The notes beneath the pieces are model-generated. The model did not search any database. It was not told the origin of the DNA and worked only from the letters and a program-made list of their open reading frames with translations. From Bacteroidaceae bacterium (lineage in GTDB: Bacteria; Bacteroidota; Bacteroidia; Bacteroidales; Bacteroidaceae), in assembly GCA_017468985.1 (NCBI GenBank), contig JAFUHF010000053.1:1-38696 (forward strand): a DNA stretch of 38,696 nt. Direction: 5' to 3'. The translations under genes were made by a program, and so were the position numbers. Below are positions 8,101 through 16,432 of this stretch, in pieces; within the stretch, counting starts at the first letter, position 1; each line of letters opens with the position of its first letter.

Positions 8101-10341
8101 ATGGCCACGTCCTACAACACCACCAATCGCAAGACCAAAAGGCAATTGCTCCACTTGCTCATTGACCTGTTCGAAAGCCATCCGCAGGAAGAATTCAGCC
8201 TAACCGACATTTGCAAGCTTCTAAAACTGAAGACCCATCCTGCAAAGTTGCTCTGCACCGATCTGCTCGTCGACTTAGTGGCCGACGACCTCATCAGTGC
8301 CACCCATCGGCATACCTATAAGCTCACCACACGCAATCAGGTGATGGAAGGCACCTTCCAACGCAACCGAAACGGACGCAACTCCTTCCTCCCCGATGGA
8401 GAAGAGAAAAGCATCTTGGTTATGGAACGCAATTCGCATCATGCCATGCATGACGACCGCGTGAAAGCCACGCTGCTGGCACGCAGGCGTAATCATACAC
8501 GCGAGGCAGAGGTGATAGAAATCGTAAAACGGGCAAAGGACACCTTTGTGGGACAGCTCAAGGTGGATCGCAACTATGCCTTCCTCATCACGAACGACCA
8601 CACCCTGCCTGCTGACATCTTTATTCCTAAGGGTTATCTCAAAAAGGGAAAAACGGGCGACAAGGCCATTGTTCAGATTGTTTCATGGACCGATGATCAG
8701 AAGAACCCCGTGGGCAAGGTGATTGACATATTGGGGGCAACGGGAAACAACGACGCCGAGATGCATGCCATTCTGGCTGAATATGGCCTGCCCTACTCTT
8801 ATCCCAAGCAAGTGGAGCAGGCAGCGGAGAAGATCAGCGATGTCATTACGGATGAAGAAGTGGCACGACGTGAGGATTTTCGCAACGTAACGACCTTTAC
8901 CATTGACCCTCACGATGCCAAGGACTTCGACGATGCCCTGTCGCTTCGTAAATTGCAGGATGGACTATGGGAAGTGGGCGTACACATAGCCGACGTTACC
9001 CATTATCTGAAAGAAGGCGGCATCATTGACAAGGAAGGGTTCAACCGCGCCACGAGTGTTTACCTTGTGGACCGCACCATTCCCATGCTTCCGGAGCGAC
9101 TCTGCAATTATCTGTGTTCACTGCGCCCCGATGAAGACAAACTCACCTATAGCGTCATATTCAACATAACCGATAAGGGAGAAATCAAAGCCTCACGCAT
9201 CTGCCGCACCGTGATTCGAAGCAACCGCCGCTTTGCCTATGAAGAAGCCCAATATCTCTTGGAACAGAATGGCGAAGCCTCGCCCGAAGACCTTCTGCAA
9301 CCAGGGGAGCATCCGCAAACCATCCACACTGACAAGCAACATCCCGTAGGCGAATATGCCGCCGAAATCATCACGCTAAACAGATTGGCCAAGATCTTCA
9401 GAGCAGAGCGATTCAAGCAAGGCGGCATTGGTTTCGATACACCGGAAATCAAATTCGAAATTGACGAGAAGGGCCATCCTGTGAGCACCTATTTCAAGAT
9501 TGCCAAGGATGCCAACAAACTGATTGAAGAATTCATGCTTCTTGCCAACAAGGCCGTAGCCGAAAAGATTGGCAAAGTGGCCAAGGGCCAGAAGTCGCGC
9601 ACCTTCGTATATCGCATTCATGACGTTCCCGATACTGAGAAACTCGAACGTCTCTCGGCCTTCGTAGCCAAGTTTGGCTACCGACTGAAAACGGAAGGTT
9701 CAAAAGATGACATCAACCGTGGGCTGAACAAGCTGCTGGCCGATTCACAAAACAAGCCCGAGCAGGAACTCGTGCGCCAGGTAGCCCTGCGCGCCATGAT
9801 GAAGGCCCGTTACTCCACTCACAACATAGGCCACTACGGACTGATGTTTCGTCACTACACACATTTCACCTCACCCATACGCCGCTATCCGGACCAGATG
9901 GTACATCGGCTGCTAACCCGATACTTAGAGGGTGGCCGCAGTGTCAGCCAGGACAAGTATGAAGAACTCTGCGAGCATTGCAACGAAATGGAAGTCATCG
10001 CCGCAACGGCCGAAAGAGCCAGCATCAAATACAAGCAAGTGGAATTCATGGCCGACCGACTGGGTCAGGTATTCGAGGGTAAAATCAGCGGAGTGAATGA
10101 ATTTGGCATCTACGTAGAGCTGGACGCCAACCATTGTGAAGGCATGGTGCCTATTCACCACCTGGATGGCGACTACTACGAATTCGACGAGCAGAACTAT
10201 TGCCTCGTAGGTCGCAGGTTCCACCGTCGCTATCAGCTGGGCGACCGGCTCAGCATCAAGGTAGCCGATGCCAACATAGAACGCCGTCAGCTCAATTTTG
10301 AGTTGGCCGACACTCCCCAGACAGACAAACATCACGCATGA
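8101..10341 (+). CDS. rnr: Ribonuclease R
   Basis: A 746-residue 3'-5' exoribonuclease of the RNase II/RNB family that degrades structured RNA. Domains in order: an N-terminal winged-helix region (about 10-85), two cold-shock RNA-binding domains (about 90-245), the RNB catalytic domain (about 260-600) and a C-terminal S1 domain (about 650-735, beginning FEGKISGVNEFGIYVEL). The catalytic metal ligands sit in TIDPHDAKDFDDAL at residues 267-280. FTSPIRRYPDQMVHRLL is the conserved RNB end motif. Length is usual for the Bacteroidetes enzyme. The stop codon overlaps the next ATG in ATGA, indicating translational coupling to the metallo-beta-lactamase-fold gene. Confidence 0.96.
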   Translation: MATSYNTTNRKTKRQLLHLLIDLFESHPQEEFSLTDICKLLKLKTHPAKLLCTDLLVDLVADDLISATHRHTYKLTTRNQVMEGTFQRNRNGRNSFLPDGEEKSILVMERNSHHAMHDDRVKATLLARRRNHTREAEVIEIVKRAKDTFVGQLKVDRNYAFLITNDHTLPADIFIPKGYLKKGKTGDKAIVQIVSWTDDQKNPVGKVIDILGATGNNDAEMHAILAEYGLPYSYPKQVEQAAEKISDVITDEEVARREDFRNVTTFTIDPHDAKDFDDALSLRKLQDGLWEVGVHIADVTHYLKEGGIIDKEGFNRATSVYLVDRTIPMLPERLCNYLCSLRPDEDKLTYSVIFNITDKGEIKASRICRTVIRSNRRFAYEEAQYLLEQNGEASPEDLLQPGEHPQTIHTDKQHPVGEYAAEIITLNRLAKIFRAERFKQGGIGFDTPEIKFEIDEKGHPVSTYFKIAKDANKLIEEFMLLANKAVAEKIGKVAKGQKSRTFVYRIHDVPDTEKLERLSAFVAKFGYRLKTEGSKDDINRGLNKLLADSQNKPEQELVRQVALRAMMKARYSTHNIGHYGLMFRHYTHFTSPIRRYPDQMVHRLLTRYLEGGRSVSQDKYEELCEHCNEMEVIAATAERASIKYKQVEFMADRLGQVFEGKISGVNEFGIYVELDANHCEGMVPIHHLDGDYYEFDEQNYCLVGRRFHRRYQLGDRLSIKVADANIERRQLNFELADTPQTDKHHA

Positions 10342-11633
10342 AAAGACGACAATTCCTAAAGACAATGGCAGCAGCAGGAGCAACTTCATGGCTCATACCA
10401 TGGGAAGAAGTCTTTGCCCGTGGAACGAACCATCCATCGGCAGGCTCAACGTGGCAAGGATGGCATGCAGGAGCATTTCAGGTACATTTCATCTATACCG
10501 GAGTGGCCGAATCCATGTTCTTCATCATGCCCGACGGCACCACCATGCTGCTTGACTGCGGCGACCACAATGCCATAGGCCGTGGAAAACTGGCTGTACC
10601 TGTACTGCCTGATGCCAAAAGACATGCCGGAGAATGGATAGCGCGATACGTAGAGCGCGTAAATCCTGGAGGGCGTCAGGTGGACTACATCATGCTCTCC
10701 CACTACCATAACGACCACGGCGGTTGCTCCCGATTCTATGCATCTAAAGAAGAACGCAACGGCAAGCCCTACTTCCTGAGCGGATTCAGCCAGGCAGCCG
10801 AAACCCTCCGTTTCGGCAAGGCCTTCGACCGTGCCTGGCCCGACTATACCGACCCTATTCCGCTCCTTGACTTTATGAGTGCTGACAACGTGGAGCACAT
10901 GAAGCAATTCTACGAAGACCAGTCTCTCCATCATGGATTGAAAATAGAAAAGTTTCAGGTTGGTGCCCAAAACCAGATTGCCCTGCTGAGAAAACCCCAA
11001 AAATATCGCAACTTTACTGTTCGCAACATTACCGGCAATGGCCGCATTGCCACGAAGGACGGAGGAATTCGCGACCTCTATGCAGAACGCAAGCTGAATC
11101 CGCCCACCCACTTCAACGAAAACGGTATGTCATTAGGCATGATCTTCAGCTATGGTCCCTTCCGGTTCTACACTGCTGGCGATTTCTCGGACCGCTGGAA
11201 GCGAGAAGATGGCACCATACTTGACATCGAGAGCGAACTGGCCAAGGAAATTTCCCACTGCCACGTAGCCAAGATCAATCACCACGGTCACTACAGCATG
11301 CCTGCCCCACTAATTGCAGCACTTCGTTCGCAGGTATACATCAGTTGCGTGTGGGACCAGCTCCACAATGTAGCCCCTGTCATGGAACGGCTTTACGACC
11401 GCACCATTTATCAAGGAGACCGCATAGTATGTCCGGGCATCTTTCCAAAGGAGCGCAAAGCCGAAGACAACGGCAAACCCTTCCTCAGCCTCATCCCAAA
11501 TGCAGCATTCGAAGGAGGACACGTCATCCTCAACGTTAGCGACAACGGGAAGCGATATAGCATCAGCTACCTCAGTGCTCAGGACGAAAGCATGACCGTC
11601 AGAAGCACCATCGATTTCCAAACAGATTACTAA
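10338..11633 (+). CDS. Exported metallo-beta-lactamase-fold hydrolase
   Basis: A 431-residue protein with an N-terminal RRQFLK twin-arginine-like motif followed by a hydrophobic stretch (residues 9-20), so probably exported, perhaps by the Tat route. The zinc-binding signature SHYHNDH puts ligands at His122, His124, Asp126 and His127. Later ligands are likely in TAGDFSD and KINHHGHYSMP. The layout, including the late NHHGHY motif, resembles ComEC/Rec2-type metallo-beta-lactamase domains more than classical beta-lactamases. The substrate is unknown. It overlaps the rnr stop by 4 nt. Whether it acts on nucleic acid, as some members of this superfamily do, is speculation. Confidence 0.8.
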   Translation: MKRRQFLKTMAAAGATSWLIPWEEVFARGTNHPSAGSTWQGWHAGAFQVHFIYTGVAESMFFIMPDGTTMLLDCGDHNAIGRGKLAVPVLPDAKRHAGEWIARYVERVNPGGRQVDYIMLSHYHNDHGGCSRFYASKEERNGKPYFLSGFSQAAETLRFGKAFDRAWPDYTDPIPLLDFMSADNVEHMKQFYEDQSLHHGLKIEKFQVGAQNQIALLRKPQKYRNFTVRNITGNGRIATKDGGIRDLYAERKLNPPTHFNENGMSLGMIFSYGPFRFYTAGDFSDRWKREDGTILDIESELAKEISHCHVAKINHHGHYSMPAPLIAALRSQVYISCVWDQLHNVAPVMERLYDRTIYQGDRIVCPGIFPKERKAEDNGKPFLSLIPNAAFEGGHVILNVSDNGKRYSISYLSAQDESMTVRSTIDFQTDY

Positions 11634-12269: not shown

Positions 12270-12381
12270 GGAGACCCTCCACCCACTCTCCGATGATTCT
12301 GATTCAGGGATCCTATAGAGGGATTCTTCAGATATTTGTGAATATAAGTCACCATATGAGTCTGAACAATATATAATTTTG

Positions 12382-12389
12382 TATTTTTG
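12382..12389 (+). promoter_or_regulatory. -7 promoter element of the caspase/CHASE2 unit
   Basis: TATTTTTG matches TAnnTTTG and lies 25 nt before the ATG at 12415, so the transcript would have a very short leader. The -33 region has no clear TTG, which could mean weak or activator-dependent expression. It is the only such box in the 145-nt gap after the superoxide dismutase gene. Confidence 0.5.
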
Positions 12390-12414: not shown

Positions 12415-14556
12415 ATGAAGAAAACAATACTTCTGCTATTTCTTGTTCTGAGCGCAGCACTGAGCTACGCCCAAACAAGCGAAGTAAAAGAATTGATGAA
12501 TAAAGCCAATAAAGGCGATGCTGCTGCACAAAACAGACTGGGTGTAAGATATTATGAAGGAAAGGGTGTGTCGCAAGATTACGAAAAGGCCGCATATTGG
12601 TATCAGAAGAGTGCCGATAAGGGTAACGACTGGGGACAAAAAAACCTGGCTGATAGCTACTATACAGGCAAGGGCGTTGCGAAAGACCTAAATAAAGCCG
12701 TTTATTGGTACCAGAAGAGTGCCAATCAAGGCAATTCCTATGCCCAAAACACGCTGGGCGTGCTCTATAACGACGGAAGAGGTGTTCCCCAGAGCTATGA
12801 ACGAGCAGTAGAATGGTTTCAGAAAAGTGCCGATCAAGGCTACGCTGCCGCACAAAACAACCTGGCAGAATGCTACTGCAGCGGAGAAGGCGTGGCCAAG
12901 GACTACGAAAAAGCCGTTTCCCTGCTACAAAAGAGTGCCAATCAAAATTATGCCAGAGCACAACACAATCTGGCCAGATGCTACTACAACGGTCAAGGCG
13001 TAGCCAAAGATCTTCAAAAAGCCATATACTGGTTTCAGAAAAGTGCCGACCAAGGATATACGTGGGCGCAAAACAGCCTGGCCAATCTCTACTATTCGGG
13101 CATAGGTGTGGAAAAGGACTATCAGAAAGCCGTAGAATGGTATCTGAAGGCTGCAGAGGCCGGAAATGCTACCGCTCAGTGCAATCTAGGCAACTGCTAT
13201 TACAGCGGTCAAGGCGTAGAGAAAAATTATGAAAAAAGTATCTATTGGTACCTCAAGAGCGCAGAGCAAGGCGATGCTTCATCGCAGAATGGCTTAGGAA
13301 ACCGTTACTATAACGGCGAAGGCGTGGAACAGGATTATCAGAAAGCCGTGGAATGGTATCTCAAAAGTGCCAAACAGGGAAATGCTTGGGGACAATACAA
13401 TCTGGGAAACTGCTATTACAATGGTCAAGGCGTAGATCTCAACTATGAAGAAGCCGTGGAATGGTTTCGCAAGAGTGCAGAGCAAGGCAATTCGTCAGCG
13501 CAAAACATGCTGGGCCTCTGCTATCGCAACGGAAAGGGCGTACCCACCAATTATGCCACAGCCGTCACGTGGTATCAGAAAAGTGCAGAGCAGGAATATT
13601 CCTCTGCCCAGTTCAATTTAGGCATTTGTTACGAAAATGGCTACGGCGTAGGCAAGGATCTGGCTGCAGCCACTTCGTGGTACAAAAAAGCCGCTGCCAA
13701 CGGACACAAAGAAGCCGGGGAAAGAATAAAGAAACTCAGTAACCCCACGAACAGCAATGCTCTGGCCTCGACGAATCAGTCGACCAATACCAAGAATACT
13801 GCGACACAGCCCTTGACATCCGTCCTGACCGGAACAACGGCTACGCCAGCCAAGGCCAGCTATGGAAAACGCATTGCCCTGATCATGGGTAACGGGAAAT
13901 ACCCCTCACAGGAGCTCAAGAACCCGTCGAATGATGCGCAGGACATTGCCGCGAAGCTGAAAAGCCTTCATTTTGAAACGCAAGTAGTGATCAACAAAGA
14001 CCGAAAGGCAATGGAGAATGCCATCAACACGTTCATTCAGAAAGCCGACCACCACGACGTGGCCCTATTCTACTACGCCGGCCATGGCATACAGTCGCAA
14101 GGGCGCAATTACCTGATTCCGCTCGATGCAGACTTGCAACAGGAAAGCGATCTGAAGTATAAATGCACGGATGCCGGATGGGTGCTTGATGCCTTAGAGG
14201 AATCAGGGTGCAAGATGAAGATCATGATCCTTGACGCCTGCCGCGACAATCCCTTCGAACGTGGATGGCGTCGTTCCCGTGGCAGCAACACTACGAAAGG
14301 TCTGGCACAGATGAATGCCCCTTCTGGCACCATTATCGCCTATGCCACAAGTCCAGGCAACGTGGCCCTTGACGGCGAAGGCAGGAACAGCCCTTATGCC
14401 AATGCACTGCTCAAAGAGCTCGACAAGCCCAACGTTTCCATTTTCCAATTTTTCAACAACGTGGGCCTGACCGTCAAGAAAAGCACCAGCGGTAAACAGA
14501 TTCCGTGGAAGAACGACACCCCGATAGAGTCCGATTTCATCTTCAATCCTCGCTAA
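12415..14556 (+). CDS. Exported Sel1-repeat/caspase-like (peptidase C14) protein
   Basis: A 713-residue protein. The start at 12415 gives a signal peptide (MKKTILLLFLVLSAALSYAQ, cleaved near residue 20), so it acts in the periplasm or at the envelope. Residues 34-429 are eleven contiguous 36-residue Sel1-like repeats, a helical protein-binding solenoid. A Thr/Ser/Asn-rich linker (about 442-482) leads to a caspase-like domain (484-713) beginning KRIALIMGNGKY. The catalytic dyad is His557 in YYAGHG and Cys609 in LDACRDNPF, both intact. The family cleaves peptide bonds; substrate preference (Asp or Lys/Arg) cannot be read. The CHASE2 membrane gene starts 6 nt after its stop and a small exported protein follows, forming a three-gene unit. 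Confidence 0.92.
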   Translation: MKKTILLLFLVLSAALSYAQTSEVKELMNKANKGDAAAQNRLGVRYYEGKGVSQDYEKAAYWYQKSADKGNDWGQKNLADSYYTGKGVAKDLNKAVYWYQKSANQGNSYAQNTLGVLYNDGRGVPQSYERAVEWFQKSADQGYAAAQNNLAECYCSGEGVAKDYEKAVSLLQKSANQNYARAQHNLARCYYNGQGVAKDLQKAIYWFQKSADQGYTWAQNSLANLYYSGIGVEKDYQKAVEWYLKAAEAGNATAQCNLGNCYYSGQGVEKNYEKSIYWYLKSAEQGDASSQNGLGNRYYNGEGVEQDYQKAVEWYLKSAKQGNAWGQYNLGNCYYNGQGVDLNYEEAVEWFRKSAEQGNSSAQNMLGLCYRNGKGVPTNYATAVTWYQKSAEQEYSSAQFNLGICYENGYGVGKDLAAATSWYKKAAANGHKEAGERIKKLSNPTNSNALASTNQSTNTKNTATQPLTSVLTGTTATPAKASYGKRIALIMGNGKYPSQELKNPSNDAQDIAAKLKSLHFETQVVINKDRKAMENAINTFIQKADHHDVALFYYAGHGIQSQGRNYLIPLDADLQQESDLKYKCTDAGWVLDALEESGCKMKIMILDACRDNPFERGWRRSRGSNTTKGLAQMNAPSGTIIAYATSPGNVALDGEGRNSPYANALLKELDKPNVSIFQFFNNVGLTVKKSTSGKQIPWKNDTPIESDFIFNPR
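12514..13701 (+). repeat. Eleven tandem 108-nt repeats coding Sel1 units
   Basis: The coding sequence contains eleven back-to-back units of exactly 108 nt (36 codons), with no indels between them. Recurrent protein elements are AQN-L at the start, a YY-G-GV core and KSA-Q at the end of each unit. Nucleotide similarity between units is high enough that unit loss or gain by recombination is plausible. Confidence 0.9.
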
Positions 14557-14562
14557 CGCCCC

Positions 14563-15807
14563 ATGCAGGAGAAAAAGCGCATTCTCTATTCGGCCCTTCT
14601 GGCCTTTCTCTTTCTGATCATCTCCTACTGGGTGACCAATCGCAGATTTCCCGTCAGTGGAGAGAAAGGCCTGCTCACCATCGTTGAAAAGGTGTGTGAA
14701 CTCTGCTCCCGACATGAGGAACAGCCGGCAGACAGCGTTTTATTCATCAATGTCACTTATGACAAAGAGCCGCGCCCCATTCTCGACGAAATGGGCATAC
14801 CCTCCGGAAGAACGCCCATCACGGATCGCCACAAATTGCTGAAGCTCCTGCAACATTTACAGCAGAAGAACGATTATAAATACCTCCTTTTAGACGTATT
14901 TTTTGGCGATGACATCACAACAGAGTGGGACTCCGCCCTGTTCCACACGATTCAGACCATGGAGCGCATCGTCATTCCCTGTCACCGCGATCAGATGCTC
15001 GCAGACGAAAAGCTTAGGAGCAAAGCCGGACTAGCCGACTACAACATCGTCACGACCGAGTCTGACTTCGTGAAATATCCCTACATCACGCACCGGCAAA
15101 AGAGCCTTCCCCTGAAGATGTTTGAAGAGGTCACGGGGCGGAAAATCAGCCGCCACGGCATTTTCTACACCGACGGGTGGCGACTCGCCCGAAACAGCAT
15201 CATTCTCACCTTCGACATTCGCGCCAGCGAAATGTATGACGATGAAGGAAACAAAATTTGGTACAATCTGGGCATGGACCTGTTAGGCGACAGCATTCCC
15301 GAACTGAATCTGAAAGGCGACCGCCTGATTTCCGAGAGTCCACAGCTCACCAGCCAGAAATACATCGTGATCGGCTCCTTTCTGGGCGACGACATGCACA
15401 CCACCTTCGTAGGAGAGCTTTCGGGCGCTGTAATCAATTTCAATGCCTTCCTCTCACTCATGAACGGCCACCACATTGTTTCGTTCACCTTGGCGCTGAT
15501 CCTTTTCGTCGTGTTCTTCATGCTTTTCTACTTAATCTTAAGCCGCAAAAGCCTGCACGATGTACTGCTGAACAAGTCAGCATCGACCAAATCGAAATGC
15601 CTTTTCCGATTGCTCAGGGGCATGGCATGGTTGCTGAAATGGCAATGGATCAACTACTCTCTGTTGCTTTCCGTGCTGTGCATCGCCACCTATTTGCTTC
15701 TGGGCGAAGCCTACGACATTTTCATCACCTCCACCCTGTTCTATCTGTTCAGTGGAGCTGTTTCCTTATACGATAAACATCAAAAACATTCCTTCCATGA
15801 TGCATAA
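14563..15807 (+). CDS. CHASE2-domain membrane sensor without an output domain
   Basis: A 414-residue membrane protein. One helix (about 8-24) is followed by an extracytoplasmic domain (about 30-303), then three helices (about 304-328, 364-384, 388-405) and a short tail. This topology and the segments DSVLFINVTYDKEPRP, YLLLDVFFGDD and YIVIGSFLGDD match CHASE2 extracytoplasmic sensor domains, which normally sit in front of kinase, cyclase or protease output domains. Here no output domain follows, which suggests that the separately encoded caspase-like protein is its partner. The ligand is unknown. It starts 6 nt after the caspase gene, and its last 11 nt overlap the start of the next gene. The CHASE2 call is by pattern; the topology itself is clear. 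Confidence 0.8.
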   Translation: MQEKKRILYSALLAFLFLIISYWVTNRRFPVSGEKGLLTIVEKVCELCSRHEEQPADSVLFINVTYDKEPRPILDEMGIPSGRTPITDRHKLLKLLQHLQQKNDYKYLLLDVFFGDDITTEWDSALFHTIQTMERIVIPCHRDQMLADEKLRSKAGLADYNIVTTESDFVKYPYITHRQKSLPLKMFEEVTGRKISRHGIFYTDGWRLARNSIILTFDIRASEMYDDEGNKIWYNLGMDLLGDSIPELNLKGDRLISESPQLTSQKYIVIGSFLGDDMHTTFVGELSGAVINFNAFLSLMNGHHIVSFTLALILFVVFFMLFYLILSRKSLHDVLLNKSASTKSKCLFRLLRGMAWLLKWQWINYSLLLSVLCIATYLLLGEAYDIFITSTLFYLFSGAVSLYDKHQKHSFHDA

Positions 15808-16432
15808 GAAGTACCTCCTTTCCGCTCTTCTCCTGACGTTCTCGTTCGGCATTGCTGCCCTGCATGCAGAAACCTACAAGGTGCTGTTTGCCAATTCCAA
15901 TCATATCAAGGTGGGCAAGCATTACATAAAGAAAGGCGACGTTATCAACGAGAAAGACAAAATCCTATGGTCCTCCGAGAGGGAGGCCCTCAAGGTGGTA
16001 AGCCTTTCCTCCGGAAGAATCGTCGTTCTTCCGGCCAAGGAACTCCAGCGTAATGACTCCAAGTCCATTTCAGACTTCTTTCGCAAAACCAAGCGGCTGT
16101 CAACACGCAGTTTCAGGATAACGCCTCCTACCGCTTCCGACTCCACGTATTATCTGCTCGATACGCTGCTGCTCAGAGCGAGCAAGCCCTTACGGCCTGA
16201 TGAAAAAGTCCAGGCCCTCATCCACTTGAACGATGAAACCATCACCACACCGCTTTCCATAACGTCCGACGGCCGTCAGTTCATTCTGACCCCAAACATC
16301 TATGGAGGACGGATGCCCATCCCTGCCCCTGTGGACATTGTCATTACGGAATCAGACAGCGAATGGCGGCATTATGCCTACCGCAAGCTCCACATCGTGC
16401 CCCTACCGCTATATATAGACGAAAAACGTTGA
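15797..16432 (+). CDS. Small exported protein of the caspase/CHASE2 unit
   Basis: A 211-residue protein starting at one of two adjacent ATGs (15797 or 15800). It has a signal peptide (KKYLLSALLLTFSFGIAALHA, cleaved near residue 25). The mature part is beta-rich: IKVGKHYIKKGDVINEKD and LSSGRIVVLPAKEL suggest a small SH3- or FecR-like strand region. This is followed by a probable Ig-like domain (QALIHLNDETITTPLSI, PAPVDIVITESD). No catalytic motif is seen and the family is not recognised. The 11-nt overlap with the CHASE2 gene indicates translational coupling. It is probably a periplasmic partner or ligand-binding accessory of the two upstream products, which is inference from gene order. Confidence 0.75.
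   Translation: MMHKKYLLSALLLTFSFGIAALHAETYKVLFANSNHIKVGKHYIKKGDVINEKDKILWSSEREALKVVSLSSGRIVVLPAKELQRNDSKSISDFFRKTKRLSTRSFRITPPTASDSTYYLLDTLLLRASKPLRPDEKVQALIHLNDETITTPLSITSDGRQFILTPNIYGGRMPIPAPVDIVITESDSEWRHYAYRKLHIVPLPLYIDEKR

Follow-up and report, generated by a model that had tools for sequence, protein, structure and literature searches.

The three-gene unit and its encoded proteins

In the present work, we have analysed a stretch of 38,696 nucleotides (nt) from a Bacteroidaceae bacterium (contig JAFUHF010000053.1 of assembly GCA_017468985.1; hereafter the window), which carries a unit of three genes coding for a protein with Sel1 repeats and a caspase domain (gene 1), a CHASE2-type membrane protein (gene 2; protein P0002) and a small exported-type protein (gene 3). 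The positions of these genes and of two candidate promoter elements are collected in Table 1. The arrangement is real and recurs in other genomes, and it is apparently undescribed in the literature that was searched; its parts are known, and its mechanism is one that we infer. All three open reading frames (ORFs) reported in the initial annotation of this DNA were recovered at the same positions, with a gap of 6 nt between genes 1 and 2 and an overlap of 11 nt between genes 2 and 3.

Table 1. Genes and candidate promoter elements of the three-gene unit in the window
Feature	Position	Strand	Length and basis
Gene 1, Sel1-caspase, exported-type	12415..14556	+	713 aa; Pfam scan, signal-peptide-like start
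Gene 2, CHASE2-type membrane protein (P0002), without fused output domain	14563..15807	+	414 aa; remote homology
Gene 3, exported-type protein of small size, commonly found beside the CHASE2-type gene, FecR identity unsupported	15797..16432	+	211 aa
Candidate Bacteroidota-type -7 boxes TAATTTTG and TATTTTTG	12374..12389	+	consensus match only

The protein encoded by gene 1 has a signal-peptide-like N-terminus (MKKTILLLFLVLSAALSYAQ), and Pfam recognizes in it 11 Sel1 stretches and a Peptidase_C14 domain (PF00656) at residues 485–702 (161 bits against a cut-off of 21.4). A check of individual residues placed the catalytic dyad at His557 (in YYAGHGI) and Cys609 (in LDACRDN), with Asp607 ahead of the cysteine, and both the eleven repeats and the intact dyad of the initial annotation were thus found again. 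An aspartate preceding the catalytic cysteine is a trait of paracaspases and metacaspases, and the closest solved sequences to the gene 1 caspase domain are those of the MALT1 paracaspase (E 9e-13); together, these two features suggest that the enzyme would cleave after basic residues (Arg or Lys). The same catalytic residues are retained in the loci compared below, where both His and Cys are present in 45 of the 47 aligned C14 domains, the exceptions being L059:3-2546, a partial match in which Thr and a gap occupy these places, and L080, whose frame is cut at the end of its stretch; the equivalent of Asp607 is kept in all 47.

Signal-peptide-like starts without a further membrane segment were found by a home-made rule in 45 of the 52 C14 or CHAT proteins of these loci, compared with 261 of the 615 other ORFs; these counts, like those for the dyad, were made before redundant loci were collapsed and include locus copies. 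The seven proteins missed by the rule include a CHASE2 fusion (L091) and the proteins of L086 and L120, in both of which the first start codon lies well upstream in frame. The initial annotation had named a cytoplasmic caspase domain as incompatible with its proposal; the predicted starts of the window protein and of its counterparts place the caspase outside, and it appears to be exported from the cytoplasm. No T9SS sorting domain was reported for gene 1 by the Pfam scan.

The assignment of gene 2 to CHASE2 rests on its family, because P0002 by itself gave no match to PF05226 (CHASE2) in Pfam (limit E 10, speed filters on); a PF05226 search of the window's genome found nothing. Five of nine P0002-type relatives pass the PF05226 cut-off of 26.3 bits (viz. 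those of L028, 32.5; L023, 31.4; L024, 27.4; L055, 35.1; and L053, 28.7 bits), three lie just under it (L021, 25.9; L027, 23.4; L054, 22.7 bits; E 9e-6 to 9e-5) and the one from L025 has no PF05226 match. When a 34-row profile of the P0002 family was compared with five canonical CHASE2 domains, hhalign gave a probability of 93.4% (E 2.6e-7) over 223 columns; the reversed control reached 0.3%, and in hmmsearch the profile scored weakly, with 5.9 bits at best. We have taken gene 2 as coding for a divergent CHASE2 protein, and the description "CHASE2-like" given to it earlier is borne out by its relatives and by the profile–profile match, not by a Pfam match of the single protein. Hydropathy indicates hydrophobic segments at residues 7–25, 308–326 and 363–381 of P0002, an arrangement of one plus two around the domain, and in the relative from L028 it indicates the usual pattern of one plus three.

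In known CHASE2 proteins, an outside sensor is joined to an internal output, for instance a kinase or a cyclase. The 414 aa of gene 2 contain no output domain and no other domain over its Pfam cut-off, in agreement with the initial annotation. PF05226 was found at 18 places in 16 of 386 genomes of the order (the window's genome not being among the 16), and the frames at 17 of these places are 383–466 aa long, too short for an output, the remaining frame being of 1327 aa. Searches of solved structures with the profiles of genes 2 and 3 gave nothing better than E 0.085.

The N-terminus of the gene 3 protein (MMHKKYLLSALLLTFSFGIAALHA) is signal-peptide-like, as had been noted before, and the home-made rule finds such a start in 52 of 56 gene 3 proteins. 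An identity with FecR (PF04773), which was suggested by the look of the protein and by the existence of FecR-CHASE2 operons, was rejected: none of 21 family members matches in Pfam, and comparison of the family with three FecR domains by hhalign gave 0.1–0.3% (reversed controls, 0.0–0.1%). Since both the Pfam and the profile comparisons failed, gene 3 is, to judge from its sequence, a positional counterpart of FecR only. FecR itself adjoins a CHASE2-kinase or CHASE2-cyclase gene in all three Pseudomonadota plasmid records that were examined (L138, L139 and L140), and no FecR name stands beside CHASE2 in two cyanobacterial records and one Bernardetia plasmid record; these six records were drawn from 22 with a CHASE2-like match (limit E 10).

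One of these records, the Rhizobium sp. BG4 plasmid, also has a gene annotated as Pycsar system effector family (L140:411-950) placed divergently beside the FecR/CHASE2-cyclase pair, which hints at a second-messenger link there. In rumen Prevotella loci, small exported-type genes recur upstream of the CHASE2 pair (e.g., L114:4047-5569), and one such upstream gene has a weak DUF4384 match below the cut-off.

Co-occurrence of the three genes

Loci for comparison were chosen by similarity to CHASE2 and not by the caspase, and the related genomes among them are not independent of each other. Named genomes yielded no locus when P0002 was the only query and 44 loci with a four-row alignment, mostly under Prevotella or Prevotellaceae titles, so that the window's genome is probably close to Prevotella; the nearest relative in a named genome is from Prevotella sp. 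UBA2746 (L135), at 59% identity. In Prevotella ruminicola KHT3 (L105), CHASE2 and gene 3 are both present, and no caspase-clan gene was called in the stretch taken from it. Collapsing 75 loci at 85% identity left 57 non-redundant loci. Before the 57-locus counts were made, we removed L131, in which no CHASE2 frame was called, L136, a fragment outside the given range, and L017, L018 and L019, whose contigs equal those of L097, L121 and L124 in length and which were therefore regarded as copies of them. Genes on the same strand with gaps of at most 200 nt are referred to here as a gene run, and genes with a C14 or CHAT domain as caspase-clan genes.

Our analyses indicate that caspase-clan genes lie near CHASE2 genes far more often than random placement would produce. 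Of 34 CHASE2-bearing genomes, C14 matches were found in 30 and CHAT matches in 23 (21 over the CHAT cut-off). A C14 or CHAT domain occurs within 2, 5 and 10 kb of 14, 19 and 20 of the 36 CHASE2 places, respectively; random placement would give 0.36, 0.71 and 1.28, and none of 20,000 simulations gave more than 4, 6 and 7. The observed count is if anything low, because Pfam recognized C14 genes in L053, and a C14 domain in the L091 fusion, that the genome search had missed. A caspase-clan gene is part of the CHASE2 gene run in 35 of the 57 loci, gene 3 (by profile) in 38, and both in 23; transglutaminase-like genes are found in 16 runs, papain-like genes in 4, and at least one of the four peptidase types in 44. 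In 17 of the 57 loci (a row count), a caspase-clan gene adjoins the CHASE2 gene or is fused with CHASE2 or with its neighbour. As far as gene positions can tell, the three genes form a real module that groups beyond chance, and the rarity of joint occurrence, which the initial annotation had regarded as fatal to its proposal, is not what was observed, with 20 of 36 CHASE2 places having a caspase-clan domain within 10 kb against 1.3 expected. Two stretches near a CHASE2 gene (G379:C1:295238-311328 and G069:C133:4074-17668) contain five C14 matches each, as if caspase genes were multiplying there.

Exchange of the exported partner and natural fusions

The partner of the CHASE2 and gene 3 pair differs from locus to locus. 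The L135 locus has a protein with WG, Sel1 and C14 domains followed by a papain-like protein, and other partners combine TPR with CHAT (L017, L024, L025, L104 and L120), WD40 with C14 (L027 and L028), C14 with LRR_5 (L020) or CarbopepD_reg with Sel1 and C14 (L058). Because other loci carry CHAT, papain-like and, by a weaker assignment, transglutaminase-like proteins, the predicted core of the module is CHASE2 plus gene 3, and the putative exported partner is the part that varies. The transglutaminase-like call is weak, with DUF553 matches from E 1e-4 (L019, over the cut-off) to 9e-3 and none for L132. Eight of these transglutaminase-like proteins were aligned (L121:7252-7956, L019:7742-8464 and L134:7240-7938, against those of L114, L100, L129, L132 and L117), and five have Asp-Cys-Glu-Asp and three Asp-Ser-Glu-Asp; the latter three may be inactive forms, as Ser stands in place of Cys.

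A quick tree of CHASE2 proteins from 56 of the 57 loci (one fragment of less than 200 aa was omitted; 25 of the 53 inner branches are starred) was labelled with effectors taken from the contents of the gene runs. The window falls in a starred group of five rows (window, L135, L093, L094 and L095), each of which has C14 in its run, and across the tree the effector class changes 5 times for CHAT and 6 times for CHAT versus C14.

Several proteins join members of the module in one frame. One fusion (L133) unites gene 3 (by profile) with C14 and five Sel1 repeats, and another (L091) unites CHASE2 (85.5 bits) with C14 (48.2 bits) in a single frame of 1307 aa. In L020, C14 and LRR_5 stand behind a start that resembles gene 3 by eye and is not called as gene 3 by the profile. 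Between the CHASE2 membrane segments of the L091 protein and its remainder lie basic residues, a hydrophobic run and Ala-Asp-Ala, which by eye look like a retained signal peptide; as such, they would place the caspase outside, and if this stretch does not cross the membrane the caspase would lie inside. A further gene 3 fusion is a protein of 940 aa (L103:9161-11983) with a gene 3 profile match and weak TPR, and without a Pfam caspase.

Comparison with known systems

The BiofilmReg operon of Burkholderiales pairs FecR with a CHASE2-kinase (PMC5192318). This operon, the pairs of L138 and L139 and the Rhizobium FecR/CHASE2-cyclase pair resemble the present unit in combining a CHASE2 membrane protein with an exported partner encoded by overlapping or close genes. 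A kinase or cyclase forms the C-terminal part of CHASE2 proteins in those operons, where the partner is a true FecR; the window unit lacks such an output, has a partner that does not match FecR and includes an exported peptidase besides.

A caspase coupled to CHASE2 is also known from the metacaspase-CHASE2 fusion of Trichodesmium (PMC2853523; PMC3501461), which is described with a cytoplasmic caspase (PMC3501461), and possibly from the EACC2-caspase proteins, whose variable C-terminus may be CHASE2 and for which the location of the caspase is not stated (PMC8195603). Unlike the Trichodesmium fusion, the window has its caspase in a protein of its own, which is of exported type and contains Sel1 repeats. 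The initial annotation had supposed that the output of the sensor was split off as an exported protease; this does not agree with the canonical CHASE2 outputs examined, which are kinases or a cyclase of cytoplasmic type. Given outputs of this kind, and the cytoplasmic caspase of the Trichodesmium fusion (PMC3501461), the exported partner looks recruited and not split off. The combination of Sel1 and Peptidase_C14 in one protein is itself known, Sel1 having been reported in 40 metacaspase sequences (6.0%; PMC3501461), for which a CHASE2/gene 3 neighbourhood is not described in the available text of that paper, its operon section included. A CHASE2 gene has also been noted among WD40 genes in a cyanobacterium (PMC5587647). 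An exported caspase unit with CHASE2 is not described in the portions of PMC4933709 that were available, and no description of one came up among the titles, abstract openings and passages retrieved from open-licence papers; loci of this kind may be tabulated in the supplement to the operon survey of PMC3501461.

A candidate that works in a similar way is LapD, a transmembrane receptor that recruits the periplasmic protease LapG and so controls it (PMC4359373). The likeness would be one of working alone, and the present unit differs in that its protease is caspase-type and that the HAMP and c-di-GMP domains are absent: the Pfam scan of the three window proteins found no HAMP, c-di-GMP or LapG-type domain, the LapG family not being searched by name.

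Proposed mechanism and alternative explanations

At the level of sequence, our analyses have established that these families are linked far beyond chance and are at times fused, that the catalytic residues are kept, that the effectors and the gene 3 proteins have signal-peptide-like starts and that the CHASE2 protein lacks an output domain. We would give an even chance to the explanation that they constitute a modular envelope system of Bacteroidota, in which a core of CHASE2 and gene 3 works with an exported effector of cysteine-peptidase type, here the Sel1-caspase. In such a system, all contacts would be made at the outer face of the inner membrane, where the CHASE2 and gene 3 proteins would hold or switch the caspase in the manner, though not as members of the family, of LapD and LapG; a periplasmic signal would lead to release or activation of the caspase, and the released enzyme would cut envelope proteins after Arg or Lys, its Sel1 solenoid picking the substrate. 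A stricter form of this proposal, which we put forward tentatively and would sooner doubt than accept, is that signalling takes place only on the outside, with an output-less CHASE2 receptor controlling an interchangeable exported cysteine protease, gene 3 serving as adaptor, and the whole path from sensing to response lying in the periplasm; the interchangeable protease, as an equally tentative part of this form, would be a caspase, CHAT, papain-like or transglutaminase-like protein. The sensor-to-protease envelope system of the initial annotation survives the examination of co-occurrence and topology in this modified form, in that its core would be CHASE2 with gene 3 and its protease exchangeable.

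A number of results weigh against a modular envelope system. The module is rare: with P0002 as single query and the window's genome counted, matches came from 1 of 19 genomes at the level of the genus, from 5 of 151 at that of the family and from 10 of 393 at that of the order. With a 12-row profile, for which up to 4 candidates per genome were scored, they came from at least 15 of the 393 genomes of the order and from at least 5 of 395 of the phylum. The exact order of caspase-clan gene, CHASE2 and gene 3 is seen in only 5 of the 57 loci (window, L053, L090, L092 and L120), and 22 of the 57 have no caspase-clan gene in the run; in 7 of the latter, the CHASE2 gene is situated within 1.5 kb of a stretch end. 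The home-made rule for signal peptides is also passed by 42% of neighbouring ORFs, locus copies included, and gene 3 does not match FecR. Lastly, this genome contains elsewhere another caspase domain like that of gene 1 (contig C75, L157:2-2813), broken into two overlapping frames (2-673 and 616-1116) at the contig start and located beside a papain-like gene (1116-2813) that is 51–55% identical to that of L135. Neither CHASE2 nor gene 3 was found in the 12 kb from that contig start; hence the caspase-papain pair is seen here apart from the core, and in the window the core has no papain-like gene with it.

Some of these observations are those that would be expected if CHASE2 with gene 3 and each of the peptidase types were separate modules, co-expressed under one envelope condition with no direct control among them. 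Gene order and content vary, the caspase-clan gene is missing from the 22 runs noted above, the caspase-papain pair stands without CHASE2 in the same genome, and the runs include other small exported genes, one with the weak DUF4384 match. We consider such a loose cluster unlikely, since the fusions across pairs and the 14 of 36 CHASE2 places with a caspase-clan domain within 2 kb (0.36 expected) exceed what co-expression needs.

The direction of signalling could also be the reverse of that proposed above, the exported peptidase being the input. It would cleave the gene 3 or CHASE2 protein in the periplasm, after which CHASE2 would pass the signal to the inside by way of a cytoplasmic partner encoded elsewhere, much as in the regulated proteolysis of membrane proteins. 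The ancestral direction may have been inward, because FecR in the three Pseudomonadota records accompanies CHASE2 proteins built for inward signalling (with a kinase in L138 and L139 and a cyclase in L140). The two steps taken together are nevertheless improbable, as 17 of the 18 PF05226 frames of the order (383–466 aa) leave no room for an output, and no recurrent cytoplasmic signalling gene was recognized in the clusters or runs, where most unnamed ORFs are unannotated.

Bacterial caspase domains occur in defence systems, and a role in phage defence or programmed cell death, in which the caspase would kill the cell from the periplasm, is in keeping with the patchy presence of the module (1 of 19 genomes in the genus), with the match of the generic caspase model of PADLOC to gene 1 (43 bits) and to three caspases of other loci, and with the match of the HEAT-ARM_XIII model, besides the generic one, to the WD40-caspase of L028 (L028:2267-5671; 66 bits); it is highly improbable, given that P0002 has no match in phage or plasmid collections (E 0.01), that genes 2 and 3 and their closest relatives in L135 have no PADLOC match, and that the genes around the unit are of ordinary kinds (RNase R, superoxide dismutase and PAP2). 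As regards system-specific anti-phage proteins, PADLOC reported for gene 1 only the generic caspase and a weak PtuA in the repeats, and nothing for genes 2 and 3. The stress response, cell death and phage defence roles put forward in the initial annotation find no support in these results.

If CHASE2 does control exported caspase-type proteases in Bacteroidota, the bacterial caspase gains a location and a regulator outside the cytoplasm, and the three genes provide a simple unit for finding the signal of CHASE2 and the substrate of the caspase. A core with exchangeable effectors would likewise make the rumen Prevotella loci a ready set for comparison, and the module may represent a little-known way of controlling protein cutting in the cell envelope.

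Genomic surroundings of the unit

Both candidate -7 boxes were located by a pattern search shortly 5' of the start of gene 1, using TAnnTTTG, the -7 consensus of Bacteroidota. Scans of promoters and terminators were uninformative, the promoter scan giving 7 matches against 4.3 expected (sd 2.0) and the terminator scan 1 against 5.3. An origin from a mobile element was considered and rejected, P0002 having no match in the plasmid or phage collections at E 0.01.

The unit is preceded by genes for RNase R, a metallo-beta-lactamase-fold protein and superoxide dismutase, and is followed by one for PAP2. In an empty-site comparison, superoxide dismutase was present in 6 of the 19 genomes of the genus, the window's own counted, and no further window gene was matched in the superoxide dismutase stretches of the other five (ORFs starting at 4–30 kb, E 1e-10). 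The metallo-beta-lactamase-fold protein (10338-11633 of the window) has a TAT-signal match slightly below the cut-off. The GC content of the unit (0.47–0.52) is close to that of the left flank and slightly under that of the right flank.

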